Program-made: the position numbers and the translations under genes
The notes under the pieces: generated by a model
What the model was told of the DNA's origin: nothing
The model's database searches: none
The model's input: the letters and a program-made list of their open reading frames with translations, nothing else
NCBI GenBank assembly: GCA_013152945.1
Contig: JAADFL010000063.1
Location: forward strand, 1 to 6,417
Length of the DNA stretch: 6,417 nt
Source: Deltaproteobacteria bacterium
GTDB taxonomy: Bacteria; Myxococcota_A; JAADFL01
Direction of reading: 5' to 3'
Part shown: positions 245-6,161 of the stretch, in pieces
Layout: each line of letters starts with the position of its first letter
Position numbering within the stretch: position 1 is the first letter of the stretch

Positions 245-670
245 CTATTCAGATTCCTTCATGTCCGTACTTCTTATAGCTCGCGCCGTTTTCCTTACGA
301 TCTCTCTTATCTCTTCGGAGTCAAAAGGCTTTGCAATGAAATCAAAGGCCCCCTTGTCCATTGCCTTGCGAGCTAATTCCATCATGGCAAAGGCGGTCAT
401 GATGATGACCTTGCATTCCGGGTTTCGCTTCATCACGTGTTCCAGCACCTGGATACCGTCGATATCCCCCATAACCACATCCGTTATCACTATGTTGAAA
501 TCCTTTTCATCGATACGCTCAAGCGCCTCTGCCGGGTCTGTGAAAGATTCTATTCGGCAACCGATTTTTCCAAGGGCAAGCCTCAATGTCCTACCCACGA
601 TCGGCTCATCATCGATGACCAAAACAGCCAGATCCTTGCAAAGAGAATCACTTGATTCTTTTCCGGCCAT
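245..670 (-). CDS. Stand-alone response regulator receiver protein (second)
   Basis: This 141-aa protein is a single CheY-like receiver domain (about residues 14-130) without an output domain. All signature residues are present: acidic pair D20-D21 (VIDDEP), phospho-acceptor D64 (VITDVVM), switch T92 (MTAFA) and conserved lysine K114 (IAKPF). Short polar tails flank the domain. The ATG at 670 follows a perfect AGGAGG (680-675) with a 4-nt spacer, and the TAG stop of the upstream kinase-like gene overlaps that site, so translation is probably coupled. It is the last gene of the operon. It is clearly paralogous to the other receiver at 3523-3122 (shared FTDP, KGAFD and IAKPF segments) but diverged. 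Its likely donor is the histidine kinase two genes upstream. It would act in the cytoplasm, by protein contact or as a phosphate sink; which of these is not visible in the sequence. Confidence 0.93.
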   Translation of the reverse strand: MAGKESSDSLCKDLAVLVIDDEPIVGRTLRLALGKIGCRIESFTDPAEALERIDEKDFNIVITDVVMGDIDGIQVLEHVMKRNPECKVIIMTAFAMMELARKAMDKGAFDFIAKPFDSEEIREIVRKTARAIRSTDMKESE

Positions 671-678
671 TGTTCCTC

Positions 679-1503
679 CTAACGAAATTTACCGATCAAT
701 TGATCGGTGAGATCTCCTCCGAATTCGATTTCCACCGAGGAAACACCGGATTCGTCCTCAATCTTCTTTCTGAGCGCTTCCAATTTTTTCTTTCCTTTTC
801 CTCCAATGCCGCCGGCATTGATCTTGATATTGCCGGACCTGGCTTGTACCTGTGCCCTTGGAGCCAATCCGGATATCAATGCCTTCACCCTACTCGCCAA
901 TTCCAGGTCTTTCAAACAACCAATAGAGTAAGTCATGGGCCTATAACGTCTCTGGGAAACAGCCTCGCAAAGTACGGCCACGGCAGCCTGTGCATCCATC
1001 TTGGACGTATTGATTATCAAGTCGAAGTTTTCCTGGTCATCGTCATCTGCGCCGAACAACAGATGGGCCGCCATCAAGCGCTTCTTGTCAGCCTTCTCTA
1101 TTCTCTGCCCGGCATCGTGAATGGTTATAGCCGCCTCTTTTGCCAAATGCGCGGCCCTATCAGCTTTGGAGGCTGTTATCCTCGCCTTGAACACATGGGA
1201 GACACCCTTGATGATATGGTGGCCGAAGGGGCCTTCATACAACACGTCATCGCTCAACAACATCTTCGCCAGTACTGCGCTGAAATGCGCGAGGCATTTC
1301 AACCTTGCTTCAACCGACATTCCGAAAAAAGAAGGAGCTTCTTCGAGAGCCCTGTGCATCTTTTCGACCGGCACGCCCATGGAGGCGGCAGCCTCTTTGA
1401 AGACCTCCTCGCCAAGCCTGTCATAGCCCAGTTGCTCTGCAACATCATGCACCAATCTCTCACCAAGAGAGTAAGACAGACAGGAAATGCTTATCACCGG
1501 CAT
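679..1503 (-). CDS. Cytidylate kinase-like protein with BON-like C-terminus, catalytic motifs eroded
   Basis: This 274-aa soluble protein has an N-terminal half (about 1-190) related to the cytidylate-kinase-like family (AAK_33/PF13189 type). It shares the arrangement ISIS...LAEQLGY-type opening, GVSHVFKARI (100-109) and FDLIINTSKMD (160-170) with the 505-aa protein of this operon. The nucleotide-binding loop is poor: SCLSYSLGERL (7-17) lacks the Gly-rich/Lys pattern. The GR of the Gly-Arg-x-Gly segment in the larger paralogue is replaced by GPFG (91-94). A C-terminal segment (about 198-262) with alternating strand/helix pattern and a GVSSVEIEF ending resembles a BON domain. I chose the ATG at 1503 because GAGGT (1515-1511) sits 7 nt upstream of it; the GTG at 1512 would lie inside that site. 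The gene follows the histidine kinase stop by 11 nt. It probably does not phosphorylate CMP; a ligand-sensing or scaffold role is inferred. Confidence 0.82.
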   Translation of the reverse strand: MPVISISCLSYSLGERLVHDVAEQLGYDRLGEEVFKEAAASMGVPVEKMHRALEEAPSFFGMSVEARLKCLAHFSAVLAKMLLSDDVLYEGPFGHHIIKGVSHVFKARITASKADRAAHLAKEAAITIHDAGQRIEKADKKRLMAAHLLFGADDDDQENFDLIINTSKMDAQAAVAVLCEAVSQRRYRPMTYSIGCLKDLELASRVKALISGLAPRAQVQARSGNIKINAGGIGGKGKKKLEALRKKIEDESGVSSVEIEFGGDLTDQLIGKFR

Positions 1504-1510
1504 CTCGTTC

Positions 1511-1515
1511 ACCTC
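1511..1515 (-). promoter_or_regulatory. Shine-Dalgarno deciding the start at 1503
   Basis: The minus strand reads TAGAGGTGAACGAG before ATG 1503. The TAG is the stop codon of the histidine kinase gene and GAGGT is the ribosome binding site, 7 nt from the ATG. The alternative GTG at 1512-1510 overlaps this site and has no site of its own. Confidence 0.75.
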
Positions 1516-3107
1516 TAATGTTTACGTTCCCGGTCCTGCCTGGCCGAAAGCATGGATGGAATCGTCGTGATCGGCAACAAGACAGTAAATGTAGAGCCTT
1601 GCCCGAACGTACTACGAGCCAACAGGTAACCGCCAAGCTTACGGATTATACCACGGGATACGGATAGACCAAGCCCCGTGCCCTGTCCTTTCGGCTTGGT
1701 GGTGAAGAAAGGATCGAATATCCGGCTCAGGATGTGTTCCGGAATACCCGGGCCGTTGTCACTGACATCCACTGCCAAGAAACCTTCTCTTTGATCAGTA
1801 CTGGTCTTGATCTTTATTTCACCTTTTTCAGGCAGTACGTCGGCTGCGTTCATTATCAGATTCATGAACACCTGGTTTAAAAGTTGGTGGTCCCCATGAA
1901 CCATCGGCAATTTTTCCGGCACATCGAAATGCAACTTTATTTTTTTTACACGTAGCTGGTTTCCGATCAATTCCACGGTTTCTTCCAGTATCTTCCTTAT
2001 GTCCAAGGTCTCGACCACGGCCTTGCTTTGCCTGGCAAAACCAAGGAGGTTGGCTACTATCTTCCTTGTCCTTTCCGCCTGGGCCACCAGGTCGTCGAGC
2101 ATTTCTTTGCGTTCTTCTTCGTCCAGCTCCAGATAGTCCTCTTGAAGCACCGAGGCGGTAAGGAGGATATTGTTCATGGGATTGTTCAACTCATGGGCCA
2201 CTCCGGCCACGAGCGTTCCCATTGCACGGAGTTTATGAGACTCTACGAGTATGCGGTGGTGTCTGTCCAGGGCCCTGACCATTCTATTGATATACAGGGC
2301 CAGGACCGAGAACTCGTCCCTGTACCTCCGGGCCGGGGTGATGGGTGTGAAATCACCTGCGGCAATTCGCTGGGTGTAACCGATGAAGCGATTCAAAGTG
2401 TTCAATATGTGCCTTGCCAAAAAGCCAACCAGCAGGATCATCAACAAGAGAAGGAGCAAAAGAAAGATAAATGGAACCCTGCGCATCAATTCCATCTTTT
2501 CCTGAACCCAAACACGCTCCTTTTCCGTCAGCTTCTGTGCCAATGACACCATCAATGCCCCATGGCTACGCAGTTTTTTTTCCATTTGGGGCCGCTCGTT
2601 TTGTGACTCCGGTATATTCCTCAAGATTTTGATGTAGTCCCTGCTGTTTTGGGCCATCTCGTCAAGTGCGTCTTCACCGATTACCTTGCGGAATCTATCC
2701 TCGTATTTCTTGAAGATGGCTTCCGCCCGCACCACGTGTTCCAAGGCGTCATTCAGATTGGTTCCATACAACAGGTAGTTTTTTTCAAACCTCCTGGCTT
2801 GCTGAATCTCCACTTTGTAATCATCGGCCACCTCGAGAAACAATATTTTATCTTGCAAATTAGCCAGTGTATGCATGATCCACAGTGTTATCAGAAAAGG
2901 GAGCAGGAAGATTATTGCAAAGGACAATATCAACCGTAACCGGATGCTGAAACTTGGTCTCTGTTTCAACGCCTGGTCGGCGGCCTCCCCAAACTCCTCG
3001 TCTTCCTTGGAGAATCCTTCGGATGTCAGAACCGACCCCAGGCTCAGAGATTCGTCATTTTCTTCATCCTGCCTGTTCCCTGTGGATGTTCGCCTCTCCT
3101 CTCCCAT
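1515..3107 (-). CDS. Membrane-bound sensor histidine kinase
   Basis: This 530-aa kinase (numbered from ATG 3107) has a hydrophilic acidic N-terminal tail (1-56), membrane segment 1 (about 57-81), and a periplasmic region of about 130 residues (82-210) that looks all-helical, with an ARRFEKNYLLYG segment as in four-helix-bundle sensors. Membrane segment 2 follows (about 211-231), then a HAMP linker (about 232-285), a HisKA helix with phospho-acceptor H305 (GVAHELNNP), and a complete HATPase: N-box N416/N420, DNGPG (450-454), DPFFTTKP after F464, and the GQGTGLGL loop from 474. No receiver is fused. GAGGAG at 3119-3114 supports ATG 3107. An in-frame TTG at 3125, overlapping the preceding receiver's stop by 4 nt, would add six residues but has only a poor site. 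It probably autophosphorylates on a periplasmic signal and passes phosphate to the two receivers of the operon. The ligand is unknown. Confidence 0.93.
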   Translation of the reverse strand: MGEERRTSTGNRQDEENDESLSLGSVLTSEGFSKEDEEFGEAADQALKQRPSFSIRLRLILSFAIIFLLPFLITLWIMHTLANLQDKILFLEVADDYKVEIQQARRFEKNYLLYGTNLNDALEHVVRAEAIFKKYEDRFRKVIGEDALDEMAQNSRDYIKILRNIPESQNERPQMEKKLRSHGALMVSLAQKLTEKERVWVQEKMELMRRVPFIFLLLLLLLMILLVGFLARHILNTLNRFIGYTQRIAAGDFTPITPARRYRDEFSVLALYINRMVRALDRHHRILVESHKLRAMGTLVAGVAHELNNPMNNILLTASVLQEDYLELDEEERKEMLDDLVAQAERTRKIVANLLGFARQSKAVVETLDIRKILEETVELIGNQLRVKKIKLHFDVPEKLPMVHGDHQLLNQVFMNLIMNAADVLPEKGEIKIKTSTDQREGFLAVDVSDNGPGIPEHILSRIFDPFFTTKPKGQGTGLGLSVSRGIIRKLGGYLLARSTFGQGSTFTVLLPITTIPSMLSARQDRERKH

Positions 3108-3113
3108 CCGGAT

Positions 3114-3119
3114 CTCCTC
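3114..3119 (-). promoter_or_regulatory. Shine-Dalgarno deciding the start at 3107
   Basis: On the minus strand GAGGAG is followed by the 6-nt spacer ATCCGG and then ATG 3107. This is near-ideal spacing and favours the ATG over the upstream TTG at 3125, whose preceding bases offer only a partial AAGGCGG match close to the codon. Confidence 0.72.
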
Positions 3120-3121
3120 AA

Positions 3122-3523
3122 TCAACCGCCTTCTTGATTCAGTTCCCTTACTGCCTTGTCAAGCAATTTTAACAAGTCCTTCGGTTTGAAAGGCTTTGCT
3201 ATAAGATCGAATGCCCCCTTTGTTTGTGCCTCCCTGGCCACCTCCATCGTGGCGTAACCGGTAATCATGATTGTTTTTGTTCCAGGTTTCAATACGCGCA
3301 CGGCATTCAGAATATCGAGTCCATCCAGCCCTTCCATCCTGATATCAGTCACTACGATGTCGAATTTCCGGTTTTCGGCAAAGTGGTCCATTGCCTTTTG
3401 GGGATCGGTAAAGGTCTCAACCTCGTACCCGTGTTTCGTCAGGGATGAATACAGGCGTTTGCATACTATTTCCTCGTCATCCACGATCAACACGTGGACC
3501 TTGCCGACCCTTTTTTGTTTCAT
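3122..3523 (-). CDS. Stand-alone response regulator receiver protein (first)
   Basis: This 133-aa protein is a lone CheY-like receiver (about residues 8-128) with D15-D16 (IVDDEE), phospho-acceptor D60 (VVTDIRM), T88 (MITGYA) and K110 (LIAKPF), so it should be phosphorylatable. There is no DNA-binding, AAA+ or enzymatic output domain. The ATG at 3523 has GAGGT at 3534-3530 with a 6-nt spacer and lies 19 nt after the permease stop. It directly precedes the histidine kinase gene (14 nt to the preferred kinase start), so it is probably the cognate first receiver. The family works as diffusible phospho-signal carriers, by relay or by direct protein binding. With no obvious downstream phosphotransferase here, I infer direct action on a partner such as the permease or the kinase-like proteins. 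Confidence 0.94.
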   Translation of the reverse strand: MKQKRVGKVHVLIVDDEEIVCKRLYSSLTKHGYEVETFTDPQKAMDHFAENRKFDIVVTDIRMEGLDGLDILNAVRVLKPGTKTIMITGYATMEVAREAQTKGAFDLIAKPFKPKDLLKLLDKAVRELNQEGG

Positions 3524-3542
3524 TGTACTACCTCGTGCTATA

Positions 3543-4634
3543 TCACATCGATGCCGAAGTTCTTCGATCCATTACAAGAGAAGCCTGAACTTTCCGGCGC
3601 TGGAAATAGGCCCGAAACACGAAATACATTATTATCAAGCATCCTGTAAGACCACTTGTATACAACAACACTTTGCTTCCAAGATTAAAATAGTAGTCGA
3701 GGGACGGATCATAGCCGAGCCATCCGAGCTGCCTTAAGTAGACCGGCATGTTGATGGCCCGGCTGATGACACAAAGAATGATTATTGACGATGTTACCAG
3801 CCTTATTATCACTTCACGCACTACTTTTGTCCCGTATGCGCCCAGGTGAATACCGAGAAGGGAGCCCAAGTACAACAGAAGAACGAGACGAATATCAACC
3901 ATTCCCCGAAATCCGTAATTCATGGCGCCCCAAAGTCCCATGAACTGTGCCAGGAACAGTTCACTACCCGCAGCAACCTGGGCCGACACGCCATACACGT
4001 AGATCATGGCCGGAACGCCTATAAAACCTCCTACTCCGATGGTGCCGGCCAAGTATCCCGTGGCCAAGCCGCATAGCAATATTACCCACAATGAGACCTT
4101 GACGTCTGCGACCGGGAAATGGATCAGAGGATGCAGCGGAAGGCGCCCAAGGAAATCCACTATGGCGGTGGAAGGCTTGCCGTCTTCCTCCTGCCTGGAA
4201 CGCAATATGTCCCTGAACATTGAAATCGATACGAAAGAAAGCACGACTATGAATACTATGCTTATGTAAAGGTCGGCGCCTGCACCCTTATGGCCTCCCT
4301 TGCCTACTGCTCCGGTCAACTGCATCAACCAGGCAGCCAGGGATATTCCTGCGGCTGCTGTAATCAGCGTATAGATGGCCAATTTTTTGTCCACGTGTCC
4401 CATTTCACCGTGTCTTCTCGCTCCCACCATGGCCTTTCCGAACTTGTGGGTAATATTCGTCGCCACTGCGATGTTTCCAGGAACTCCCAGGTTCATCATT
4501 CCCGGTGTCATAAAGAAAGCACCGCCGCTTCCGATGAACCCGCTCAATATTCCTCCGACAAATCCCAGGATCACCACCTGGAGCATTATCCATGGATCCA
4601 AGGTTATGAAGTGACCGAGCAGAAAATCAGGCAT
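3543..4634 (-). CDS. Sulfite exporter TauE/SafE family permease
   Basis: This 363-aa polytopic inner-membrane protein belongs to the TauE/SafE (formerly DUF81) family, whose members are reported to move sulfite, sulfoacetate or other small organosulfur anions. The family's internal duplication is plain: GFVGGILSGFIGSGGAF (24-40) in the first half and GLATGYLAGTIGVGGFIGVP (189-208) in the second, each opening with Gly-rich helices and followed by Pro. I count about eight or nine membrane segments, including an extra C-terminal one near 322-341. A polar loop (about 140-178) separates the halves. It is longer than a minimal family member of about 250 residues. The ATG at 4634 follows GAGGAGG (4645-4639), which overlaps the TGA stop of the 505-aa gene, so the two are probably coupled. 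The substrate cannot be read from the sequence; sulfite or another anion is the family default. Confidence 0.9.
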   Translation of the reverse strand: MPDFLLGHFITLDPWIMLQVVILGFVGGILSGFIGSGGAFFMTPGMMNLGVPGNIAVATNITHKFGKAMVGARRHGEMGHVDKKLAIYTLITAAAGISLAAWLMQLTGAVGKGGHKGAGADLYISIVFIVVLSFVSISMFRDILRSRQEEDGKPSTAIVDFLGRLPLHPLIHFPVADVKVSLWVILLCGLATGYLAGTIGVGGFIGVPAMIYVYGVSAQVAAGSELFLAQFMGLWGAMNYGFRGMVDIRLVLLLYLGSLLGIHLGAYGTKVVREVIIRLVTSSIIILCVISRAINMPVYLRQLGWLGYDPSLDYYFNLGSKVLLYTSGLTGCLIIMYFVFRAYFQRRKVQASLVMDRRTSASM

Positions 4635-4638
4635 GGGT

Positions 4639-4646
4639 CCTCCTCA
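4639..4646 (-). promoter_or_regulatory. Stop codon fused with Shine-Dalgarno (TGAGGAGG)
   Basis: The TGA ending the 505-aa gene (4646-4644) is the first part of TGAGGAGG, a full-strength ribosome binding site 4 nt upstream of the permease ATG at 4634. Terminating ribosomes would sit on the initiation site of the next gene. The TAG-GAGG arrangement at 681-675 before the last receiver gene repeats the design. Confidence 0.7.
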
Positions 4647-6161
4647 CTCGAACTTGAACAAGCGCAACAGGTACTCTGTGAAATTGCCGTATCCGAAAGC
4701 GAACAAGGGTACGAAAGCAACAAGGACGGCGGTACTTAAAACCATGTGGGTGGAATCGCCGTCCGTAAGAAATGACAAAACTTCACTTTGGTGTTTCAGC
4801 ACGAGCAGAAACAACACTATTGCAAGAACGCCGAAAGACAAAAATTTAAACCATTGCCGCGGACCGAACAAGTAGTGAGCCTTCAGATCATCAGCATTCA
4901 AAACAGGAGAACGTAGAGTGTCGTACATGCTGCTGACCAATTCGGCGGTCAGCCTTTTCCTTACCGCCGGCTCCTTTTTCAGGTAAACGTTTCCCACAAC
5001 CACCAGATCGTAATTGATCGCCCTGTCCATTGTCTCGATGATTTTTTCCATACCTCCATGGACTATCCTGCATCCTCCGGCCCTTCCCGCCGTTATCAGC
5101 CTGCTGCGTGTCTTTTGAAAACCTTCGTCCAATTGTAAAAAATCATATGGGTCGGACTTGTCATCCAGGATGCCGCCGTTTTCAACAATTGCTTTATTGC
5201 CGGCCGCGTTGTCCGGTTGTATTTCATTGACAGATTCGTCCGGCGTTTCTGTTTCTTCGGGCAGGGCAACCATTTCAATTGCCGCATTCCACTTGGCGGC
5301 AATCTCCAGTAATTGATCCAGTTGAGGACTGTTCGGATCGAACTTTTCCTGGAGCCAAAGTATGTTGGTGGAGGCCATGGTGCATATCACTTCTTTGACC
5401 TCTGAAATTCCTCCCAGGACCTTTGGAATCAAGTCGGCTTGCTCATACTGGCGCGGCAGGTACGTAACCGAAACCGTTCCACGCTCTGCTTTTACCTGTA
5501 CAGACATATCCCTTGTCCGTTGATCCGCGCCGATGGCAAGCCTGCAGCGTGCAGCAAGGAGCAGGTTTTCCAGGGCCTTCCTGGTGGCCGGGGTAACCTG
5601 AAACTCCGGGAGTTGGGCCGTTGCCACCAACGAGATTGCCGCGTTTTCAGCCCTCATGTGTGAAAGGCTGACCACTATGTCGTACAGGGCCGGATCCTCC
5701 CAATCCACGTTGTATACGTTCCGAATCCATCGCCGCCTGTCGTCGTCCACATGCTCGATGTATTCCCGGGCCTTTTCACGTTTGAGGTTCAGGCGTTCCA
5801 TTACCGATGCCACCCGTTGTTCCGGATCCATAATGGCCCTTATCCTGAAAACGTGGGATACCCCTGGAAGAACAAGGTGGCCTGTCCTTCCATGGTAAAC
5901 GAGCCCGCCTTCCAGGGCCTTTTCACAGAGCGTGGCCGTAACAAAGGCCTTGTAACGTTCCTTTTCAATGGCAAGGCGCTCGTTCAAGGGCCTATGACGC
6001 ATCACGGCCATCTCCAGCTTGCCTACTGGAATACCGGCCCTTGTCGCCGATTCCGTCAGGTCTTCTCTGGACAAGCATTCATACCCGAGTTCTTTGGCAA
6101 GATTTTCCGCAAGGTTCTTTCCACCTGTAAAAGTTCCCCTGGAAATACAAATAATCTGCAT
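4644..6161 (-). CDS. Membrane-anchored cytidylate kinase-like / BON-like / USP-like fusion protein
   Basis: This 505-aa protein is the first gene of the operon. Residues 1-200 are cytidylate-kinase-like (AAK_33 type): loop ISRGTFTGGKNLAENLAKEL (6-25), a GRTG segment (91-94), PGVSHVFRIRAI (99-110) and DDDRRRW..YNVDWEDPALYDIVVS (139-165), so substrate-binding residues look largely kept, although the loop ends GK-N rather than GK-S/T. About 206-262 resembles a BON domain. About 264-422 has a universal-stress-protein-like pattern (NILWLQEKF strand, NAAIEMVAL strand, DLVVVG strand, SPVL end) interrupted by an acidic linker (302-335), and it lacks the G-2x-G-9x-G[S/T] ATP motif. Two membrane helices (about 437-456 and 473-491) anchor it, with the main body probably cytoplasmic. 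GAGAGG at 6173-6168 supports ATG 6161. Kinase activity is unproven; a nucleotide-sensing partner of the adjacent permease is inferred. The BON-like and USP-like assignments are by pattern only. Confidence 0.85.
   Translation of the reverse strand: MQIICISRGTFTGGKNLAENLAKELGYECLSREDLTESATRAGIPVGKLEMAVMRHRPLNERLAIEKERYKAFVTATLCEKALEGGLVYHGRTGHLVLPGVSHVFRIRAIMDPEQRVASVMERLNLKREKAREYIEHVDDDRRRWIRNVYNVDWEDPALYDIVVSLSHMRAENAAISLVATAQLPEFQVTPATRKALENLLLAARCRLAIGADQRTRDMSVQVKAERGTVSVTYLPRQYEQADLIPKVLGGISEVKEVICTMASTNILWLQEKFDPNSPQLDQLLEIAAKWNAAIEMVALPEETETPDESVNEIQPDNAAGNKAIVENGGILDDKSDPYDFLQLDEGFQKTRSRLITAGRAGGCRIVHGGMEKIIETMDRAINYDLVVVGNVYLKKEPAVRKRLTAELVSSMYDTLRSPVLNADDLKAHYLFGPRQWFKFLSFGVLAIVLFLLVLKHQSEVLSFLTDGDSTHMVLSTAVLVAFVPLFAFGYGNFTEYLLRLFKFE

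Follow-up and report, generated by a model that had tools for sequence, protein, structure and literature searches.

A TSUP permease with a constant membrane-anchored partner and two-component genes: a candidate regulated sulfur-oxyanion carrier of dsr-type sulfate respirers

What could hold a membrane permease, a sensor kinase, two lone receivers and two kinase-like proteins together in one tight gene cluster? The question is posed by contig JAADFL010000063.1 of the Deltaproteobacteria bacterium assembly GCA_013152945.1 (Myxococcota), whose entire 6417 bp form the window analyzed here; the genome measures 4.84 Mb. Its six open reading frames, called by our own script with homology guidance, all lie on the minus strand with intergenic gaps of 9, 19, -4, 2 and 8 nt. 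They encode, in order, a 505-residue protein called KIN505 here (6161-4644), a TauE/SafE permease of 363 residues (4634-3543), a receiver, a histidine kinase, a 277-residue protein (KIN277) and a second receiver. Coordinates and gaps confirm a sequence-only reading of the window as six co-directional, closely packed genes, and the identities it proposed, namely a TauE/SafE permease, a sensor kinase, two receivers and two AAK_33-type proteins, are borne out by Pfam. The answer that we favor, at about even confidence, is a regulated sulfur-oxyanion carrier of dsr-type sulfate respirers, equipped with a dedicated membrane-anchored regulatory subunit under two-component control.

Is the cluster conserved? 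A search with a permease alignment retrieved 80 named loci by permease similarity alone, whereas a scan of genome contigs with KIN505 alone gave no matches. The carrier genomes are mostly metagenome assemblies, and part of the 'unknown' neighbors in these relatives are antisense reading frames. The loci span about ten phyla, among them Desulfobacterota, Myxococcota, Zixibacteria, Latescibacterota, Acidobacteria, Gemmatimonadetes, Planctomycetota, Armatimonadetes, Omnitrophota, Nitrospirae and Sumerlaeota. Directly upstream of the permease, 75 of the 76 loci with room for it hold a partner with a USP-like part and two transmembrane helices (2TM), and no other pair of the cluster is as constant. 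For permease and partner, the earlier proposal of one conserved module thus passes its own refuting condition, namely lack of conservation or separate occurrence with different neighbors. The kinase-like part is present in 61 of 77 partners; it is missing in Nitrospirota and some Desulfobacterota, where the partner is cut down to USP-2TM, and some Desulfovibrionales have a 2TM protein of about 100 residues and a separate Usp in place of the fused partner. These reduced forms mark the 2TM piece as the most constant part. Where at least 5.5 kb of downstream sequence is available, a receiver follows the permease in 42 of 50 loci, often together with a histidine kinase, and the identical six-gene order recurs in L062, L064, L083 and L115. 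Phylum does not predict the window's place on the permease tree, where it joins L060 (Zixibacteria), L061 (Latescibacterota) and L062 in one group.

Does this pair follow a particular metabolism? Among 377 Myxococcota genomes, DsrA scores above its curated cut-off in six (the window's own, G000, and G007, G068, G112, G178 and G236), all of which also have AprA and Sat. The permease is confined to G000, G007, G068 and G112, all four DsrA-positive (hypergeometric p 1.8e-8; about 1e-6 by hand without the starting genome G000), and among 179 Acidobacteriota seven of the eight permease carriers are found within the 19 genomes with DsrA (p 3.6e-7; six of seven and p 3.0e-6 without the seed genome), p-values that relatedness and horizontal transfer make too small. 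The window's genome has Sat, AprA and DsrA/B/D, with dsrA-dsrB-dsrD in that order. Across 50 named carrier genomes, DsrA exceeds the cut-off in 43 and is partial, as split or edge fragments, in three more; many Desulfobacterota were left out of this set, which makes 43 of 50 a conservative count. On a single contig of the acidobacterium G444 (L157/L158), the module lies together with another TauE-like gene, more kinase-like (KIN) genes, dsrABD and a DsrL-like gene, along with what we take, by eye from the sequence starts, to be DsrMKJOP and Qmo genes. In G236 (L051 1-5136) a co-oriented run of dsrA-dsrB-dsrD-like-dsrL-like genes is followed after 78 bp by a KIN gene; the names DsrD and DsrL are presumptive, as they rest on similarity to these L051 genes, which we named by position. 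In sum, the module occurs almost only in bacteria with the sulfite reductase of sulfate respiration.

What, then, does the permease carry? Its PF01925 match (1.8e-35; 123.2 bits against a gathering score of 32.6, residues 21-290) assigns it to the TSUP or TauE/SafE family; NCBIfam supplies no name for it, and a structure search returned no close solved structure. It probably belongs to a so far unnamed TSUP group of sulfate reducers labelled 'clade B'. A survey by Marietou et al. 2018 (PMC5840216) describes this clade as highly conserved in 25 of 44 sulfate reducers from six phyla, with members including DVU2958, Adeg_0175 and Dret_2118; for two of the organisms it lists no putative sulfate transporter outside this clade. 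Consistent with membership, 38 of 120 genomes in the order of G605 hold one permease homolog each, in some of them with 2TM and Usp genes upstream. The sequence-only reading knew of no characterized system of this composition. This stands as far as function goes, and literature searches on the gene combination found no description; the permease was probably already recognized as clade B (PMC5840216).

For the substrate, we infer that sulfate uptake is most likely and sulfite next. The sulfate uptake route of sulfate respirers is not settled: according to the 2018 survey, no study had identified the proteins of sulfate uptake in these organisms (PMC5840216), and growth on sulfate persisted in a D. 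vulgaris strain deprived of three annotated sulfate permeases (PMC7531388). The module offers a defined gene pair as a candidate. A bolder version, in which it is the missing, widely shared sulfate uptake system and the KIN-BON-USP-2TM protein a gating subunit tied to energy or APS/AMP state because sulfate activation costs ATP, is tentative and in our judgment rather improbable. Transport in the opposite direction, with the carrier exporting sulfite or other reduced sulfur species when sulfite formation outruns DsrAB and the regulatory proteins sensing the imbalance, appears similarly unlikely. Such an exporter would share the dsr link, and TauE/SafE is named for sulfite export in Cupriavidus necator (as cited in PMC5840216 and PMC3949148); a tauE homolog of Archaeoglobus has been proposed as a sulfite importer (PMC3949148), so direction is little constrained. 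With TSUP proteins the sole candidates for sulfate transport in two sulfate reducers (PMC5840216), sulfate import would be favored if clade B is the permease family of the module.

The genes downstream of the permease keep the residues that a phosphorelay needs. Lone receiver 1 (133 residues, 3122-3523) and lone receiver 2 (141 residues, 245-670), both matched by Pfam Response_reg, keep their phosphoacceptors D60 and D64, and the membrane histidine kinase (536 residues, 1515-3125, listed start codon TTG) combines a periplasmic sensor, HAMP, HisKA and HATPase according to Pfam, with an intact H-box HELNNP (H311). By sequence, H-box, HATPase and receiver aspartates identify a two-component system. 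The periplasmic part is a helical domain of residues about 91-211, in which the stretch EiqQaRRfEKN..LYgtnL is conserved in kinases from 36 sources, the window included; identity to the window averages 40% over the sensor and about 60% over the catalytic parts. This conserved stretch suggests that the kinases of the module read one class of signal.

KIN277 (679-1512) has, according to Pfam and fold, the same cytidylate-kinase-like domain as KIN505 and one more small alpha/beta domain resembling BON. A link between receivers and kinase-like proteins is supported by fusions: G007 encodes a KIN-receiver fusion protein, and best matches to it occur in G112, G178 and G316. A second module built around such a KIN-REC protein is seen in L013 (8346-12873), L054 (3562-8272), L049 (9919-11757) and L055 (3165-4244); in L013 and L054 it sits with a histidine kinase, a receiver, a protein of about 226-260 residues and another receiver. 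G316 has a KIN-REC gene and no DsrA match, hence this second module is not tied to dsr.

The downstream signalling part itself comes in two forms, with a 277-type kinase-like protein in 12 loci or a PPDK_N-type protein in 19, never together within one operon in the loci surveyed. In L115 (7156 onwards) a KIN-receiver-PPDK-like set lies behind the six-gene module on the opposite strand, with both forms adjacent in one genome. Mapped on the permease tree, the form switches some 20 times, with 'none' and loci truncated by contig ends counted as well, and this suggests exchange.

Could the signal be directed at transcription instead? The sequence-only reading saw no transcriptional output, and indeed the window encodes no DNA-binding response regulator, with sequence ending 256 bp upstream of the first gene. 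For the system overall this does not hold. Among the 58 loci with at least 2.5 kb upstream, 31 encode an NtrC-type sigma-54 activator no more than 2.6 kb away, and a Usp gene adjoins the partner in 31; L083, which shares the six-gene order, has both. Several loci show high-scoring -24/-12 sites before the Usp gene, for example TGGCACGGGTTTTGCT in L103. Neither NtrC nor Usp was found in the available upstream sequence of the closest relatives L060, L061, L063 and L064 (only 1.1 kb in L063), which weakens the simple explanation that the window lost NtrC to the contig end. Before the window's first gene no good sigma-54 promoter was found either, the best site agreeing at 7 of 12 positions. With NtrC in 31 of 58 loci and in none of the closest relatives with upstream sequence, the earlier claim may be true for the window's subclade but does not describe the system as a whole.

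These findings bear on a reading in which the main role of the signalling genes lies elsewhere, in control of transcription or of sulfur enzymes, with the permease as one target of several and the partner as an assembly or stability factor. In addition to the activators and promoter sites, it can draw on D. vulgaris, where DVU2956 has its binding site upstream of DVU2957; the sigma-54 operon DVU2957-DVU2964, annotated as transmembrane transport (PMC4641369), spans the gene that PMC5840216 places in clade B, DVU2958. It can also draw on the DsrA-positive genome G178, where L052 (1-5571) holds KIN, 277-type KIN, receiver, PPDK-like (PPS) and histidine kinase genes and no TauE gene. The closest relatives and the window's poor sigma-54 site argue against it, as does the fact that permease and partner, not the signalling genes, form the most constant pair. 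On balance we consider it doubtful.

Pfam Cytidylate_kin2 (PF13189, AAK_33) matches both KIN505 and KIN277 (1.7e-33 and 6.3e-23), and the few NCBIfam matches to the kinase-like proteins are all below cut-off. The sequence-only reading was right about this domain but missed three more parts of KIN505: BON-like, USP-like and two transmembrane helices. An AlphaFold model built with 61 family members (pLDDT 88.7) gives residues 1-188 (5598-6161) the AAK_33 fold, close to 3hdt (Z 20.1, rmsd 2.2 over 164 residues). The BON-like domain, residues 191-271 in the model (5349-5591), matches BON domains by profile over residues 196-258 (OsmY E 1e-5, YraP 0.0098), while the Pfam scan found no BON match. 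Its end overlaps the first strand of the USP-like domain, which covers residues about 265-422 (4896-5369) and includes a disordered loop at 305-342. The USP likeness draws on the whole-protein model and on profile comparisons: Foldseek finds USP 5ahw (E 5.5e-4, aligned range not reported), the direct profile match of the C-terminal half is weak (hhalign 28%, E 6e-4), PF00582 gave no match in the Pfam scan, and the short Nitrospirota partners bridge the two, matching KIN505 at 98.6% and USPs at 97.2% in profile comparison. The model ends in two transmembrane helices, 434-456 and 470-501 (residues 434-501, 4659-4862), likewise indicated by the short Nitrospirota partners.

Are the kinase-like proteins still kinases? 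Their fold and PF13189 matches would allow active nucleotide kinases and a cluster that serves nucleotide metabolism. The P-loop GTFTGGKN of KIN505, read against the Walker A motif GxxGxGK[ST], keeps G-x4-GK and lacks the Ser/Thr, and thus departs from the CMP-kinase motif; of 63 family members, 27 retain the P-loop lysine and one, L061, has a Ser/Thr after GK. The cluster holds no nucleotide pathway genes, and the Nitrospirota partners dispense with the domain altogether. An active CMP kinase was rejected as the leading explanation on the P-loop, and a role in nucleotide metabolism is very improbable. In the USP-like domain, read by eye, the ATP-binding motif G-2x-G-9x-G[S/T] is absent and the window has VVVGNVYLKKEPAVRKRLTAEL in its place. 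Given both motif losses, the suggestion of the sequence-only reading that the kinase-like proteins are nucleotide sensors is tentative at best. As for a chance neighborhood of ordinary genes, every family is common on its own, but the order repeated in four other loci and the near-constant pair refute it.

How might the carrier that we favor be regulated? The TauE/TSUP protein would be a secondary carrier for a sulfur oxyanion and KIN505 its regulatory subunit, whose two C-terminal helices would lie next to the carrier, while on the cytoplasmic side its USP-like, BON-like and kinase-like domains would set carrier activity. The histidine kinase would read a periplasmic signal via its conserved helical sensor and phosphorylate both lone receivers, which could act by contact to switch the carrier, receiver 2 by way of KIN277. 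In many relatives an NtrC-type activator would add a sigma-54 transcriptional layer, one not seen in the window's subclade. Physical contact, direction of signal flow and ligand are putative throughout; both the permease-partner link and the partner's transmembrane helices agree with post-translational control, which the sequence-only reading had guessed.

Several points weigh against this proposal, apart from the overstated co-occurrence statistics. The dsr link is not two-way, as 12 of 19 DsrA-positive Acidobacteriota and two of six DsrA-positive Myxococcota have no such permease. Canonical nucleotide motifs are absent from the P-loop and the USP-like domain of KIN505 alike. Given L052, the signalling set may have targets besides the permease. 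Finally, TSUP substrates and directions vary, the C. necator TauE being described as a sulfite exporter (cited in PMC5840216 and PMC3949148). The analysis points to a single family of permeases, each with its own regulatory subunit, that goes with dsr genes over about ten phyla, Myxococcota and Acidobacteriota included. If the proposal is true, the AAK_33, BON and USP folds would have found a new use in the regulatory subunit of a carrier.

Some further elements accompany the module. A family of about 330 residues lies between permease and receiver in several loci (L065 11133-12116, L012 1773-2726, others); it has no Pfam or NCBIfam match, its profile also matches PPDK-like proteins, and it may be a freed domain of these. 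Near the module, Nitrospirota and a few other carriers have a second TauE-like gene, similar to the C-terminal portion of MamO, and behind it a gene for an Alph_Pro_TM/TIGR02186 protein (L126 8371-10623, L125 11509-13746). In the window, a perfect palindrome aggggcggttcgcgaaccgcccct at 184-207, downstream of the last gene, adjoins a G-rich stretch that looks repetitive; it could be a terminator or belong to a repeat element.

Which known systems come closest? The TauE of C. necator, a sulfite exporter, shares the Pfam TauE family with the window's permease, while the window's cluster lacks sulfonate catabolism genes; to our knowledge no dedicated partner and phosphorelay accompany the C. necator protein. 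Clade B resembles the permease by description, as a TSUP family and candidate sulfate carrier with no known function. The passages of PMC5840216 consulted on it mention no partner protein and no kinase-like, USP or receiver genes, and the permease family of the module reaches further phyla.

The DVU2956 regulon offers an enhancer-binding activator adjoining an operon with a clade B TSUP gene inside it, and several Desulfovibrionales homologs of the permease have Usp, 2TM and NtrC or histidine kinase genes nearby. Producing DVU2956 in D. vulgaris biofilm cells reduced biofilm, and a title cited in the same source links it to hydrogen sulfide production (PMC8586430). DVU2956 is a one-component activator without a receiver, and the eight Desulfovibrionales permease copies examined had no KIN gene next to them.

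A precedent for a USP acting on a carrier comes from Halomonas elongata, where TeaD, whose gene accompanies those of the secondary transporter TeaABC, is reported to curb ectoine uptake by that transporter while teaA mRNA stays unchanged (PMC2964678, citing Schweikhard et al. 2010). TeaABC is a TRAP transporter and TeaD a stand-alone USP, whereas the USP-like domain of the module shares one chain with kinase-like, BON-like and membrane parts and has no ATP motif. The DASS/SulP sulfate-uptake clusters use other carrier families, CBS proteins, cache-type kinases and WalR-type response regulators, yet they likewise place carrier genes of sulfate reducers next to two-component systems, and energy sensing has been proposed there too (PMC11887813).

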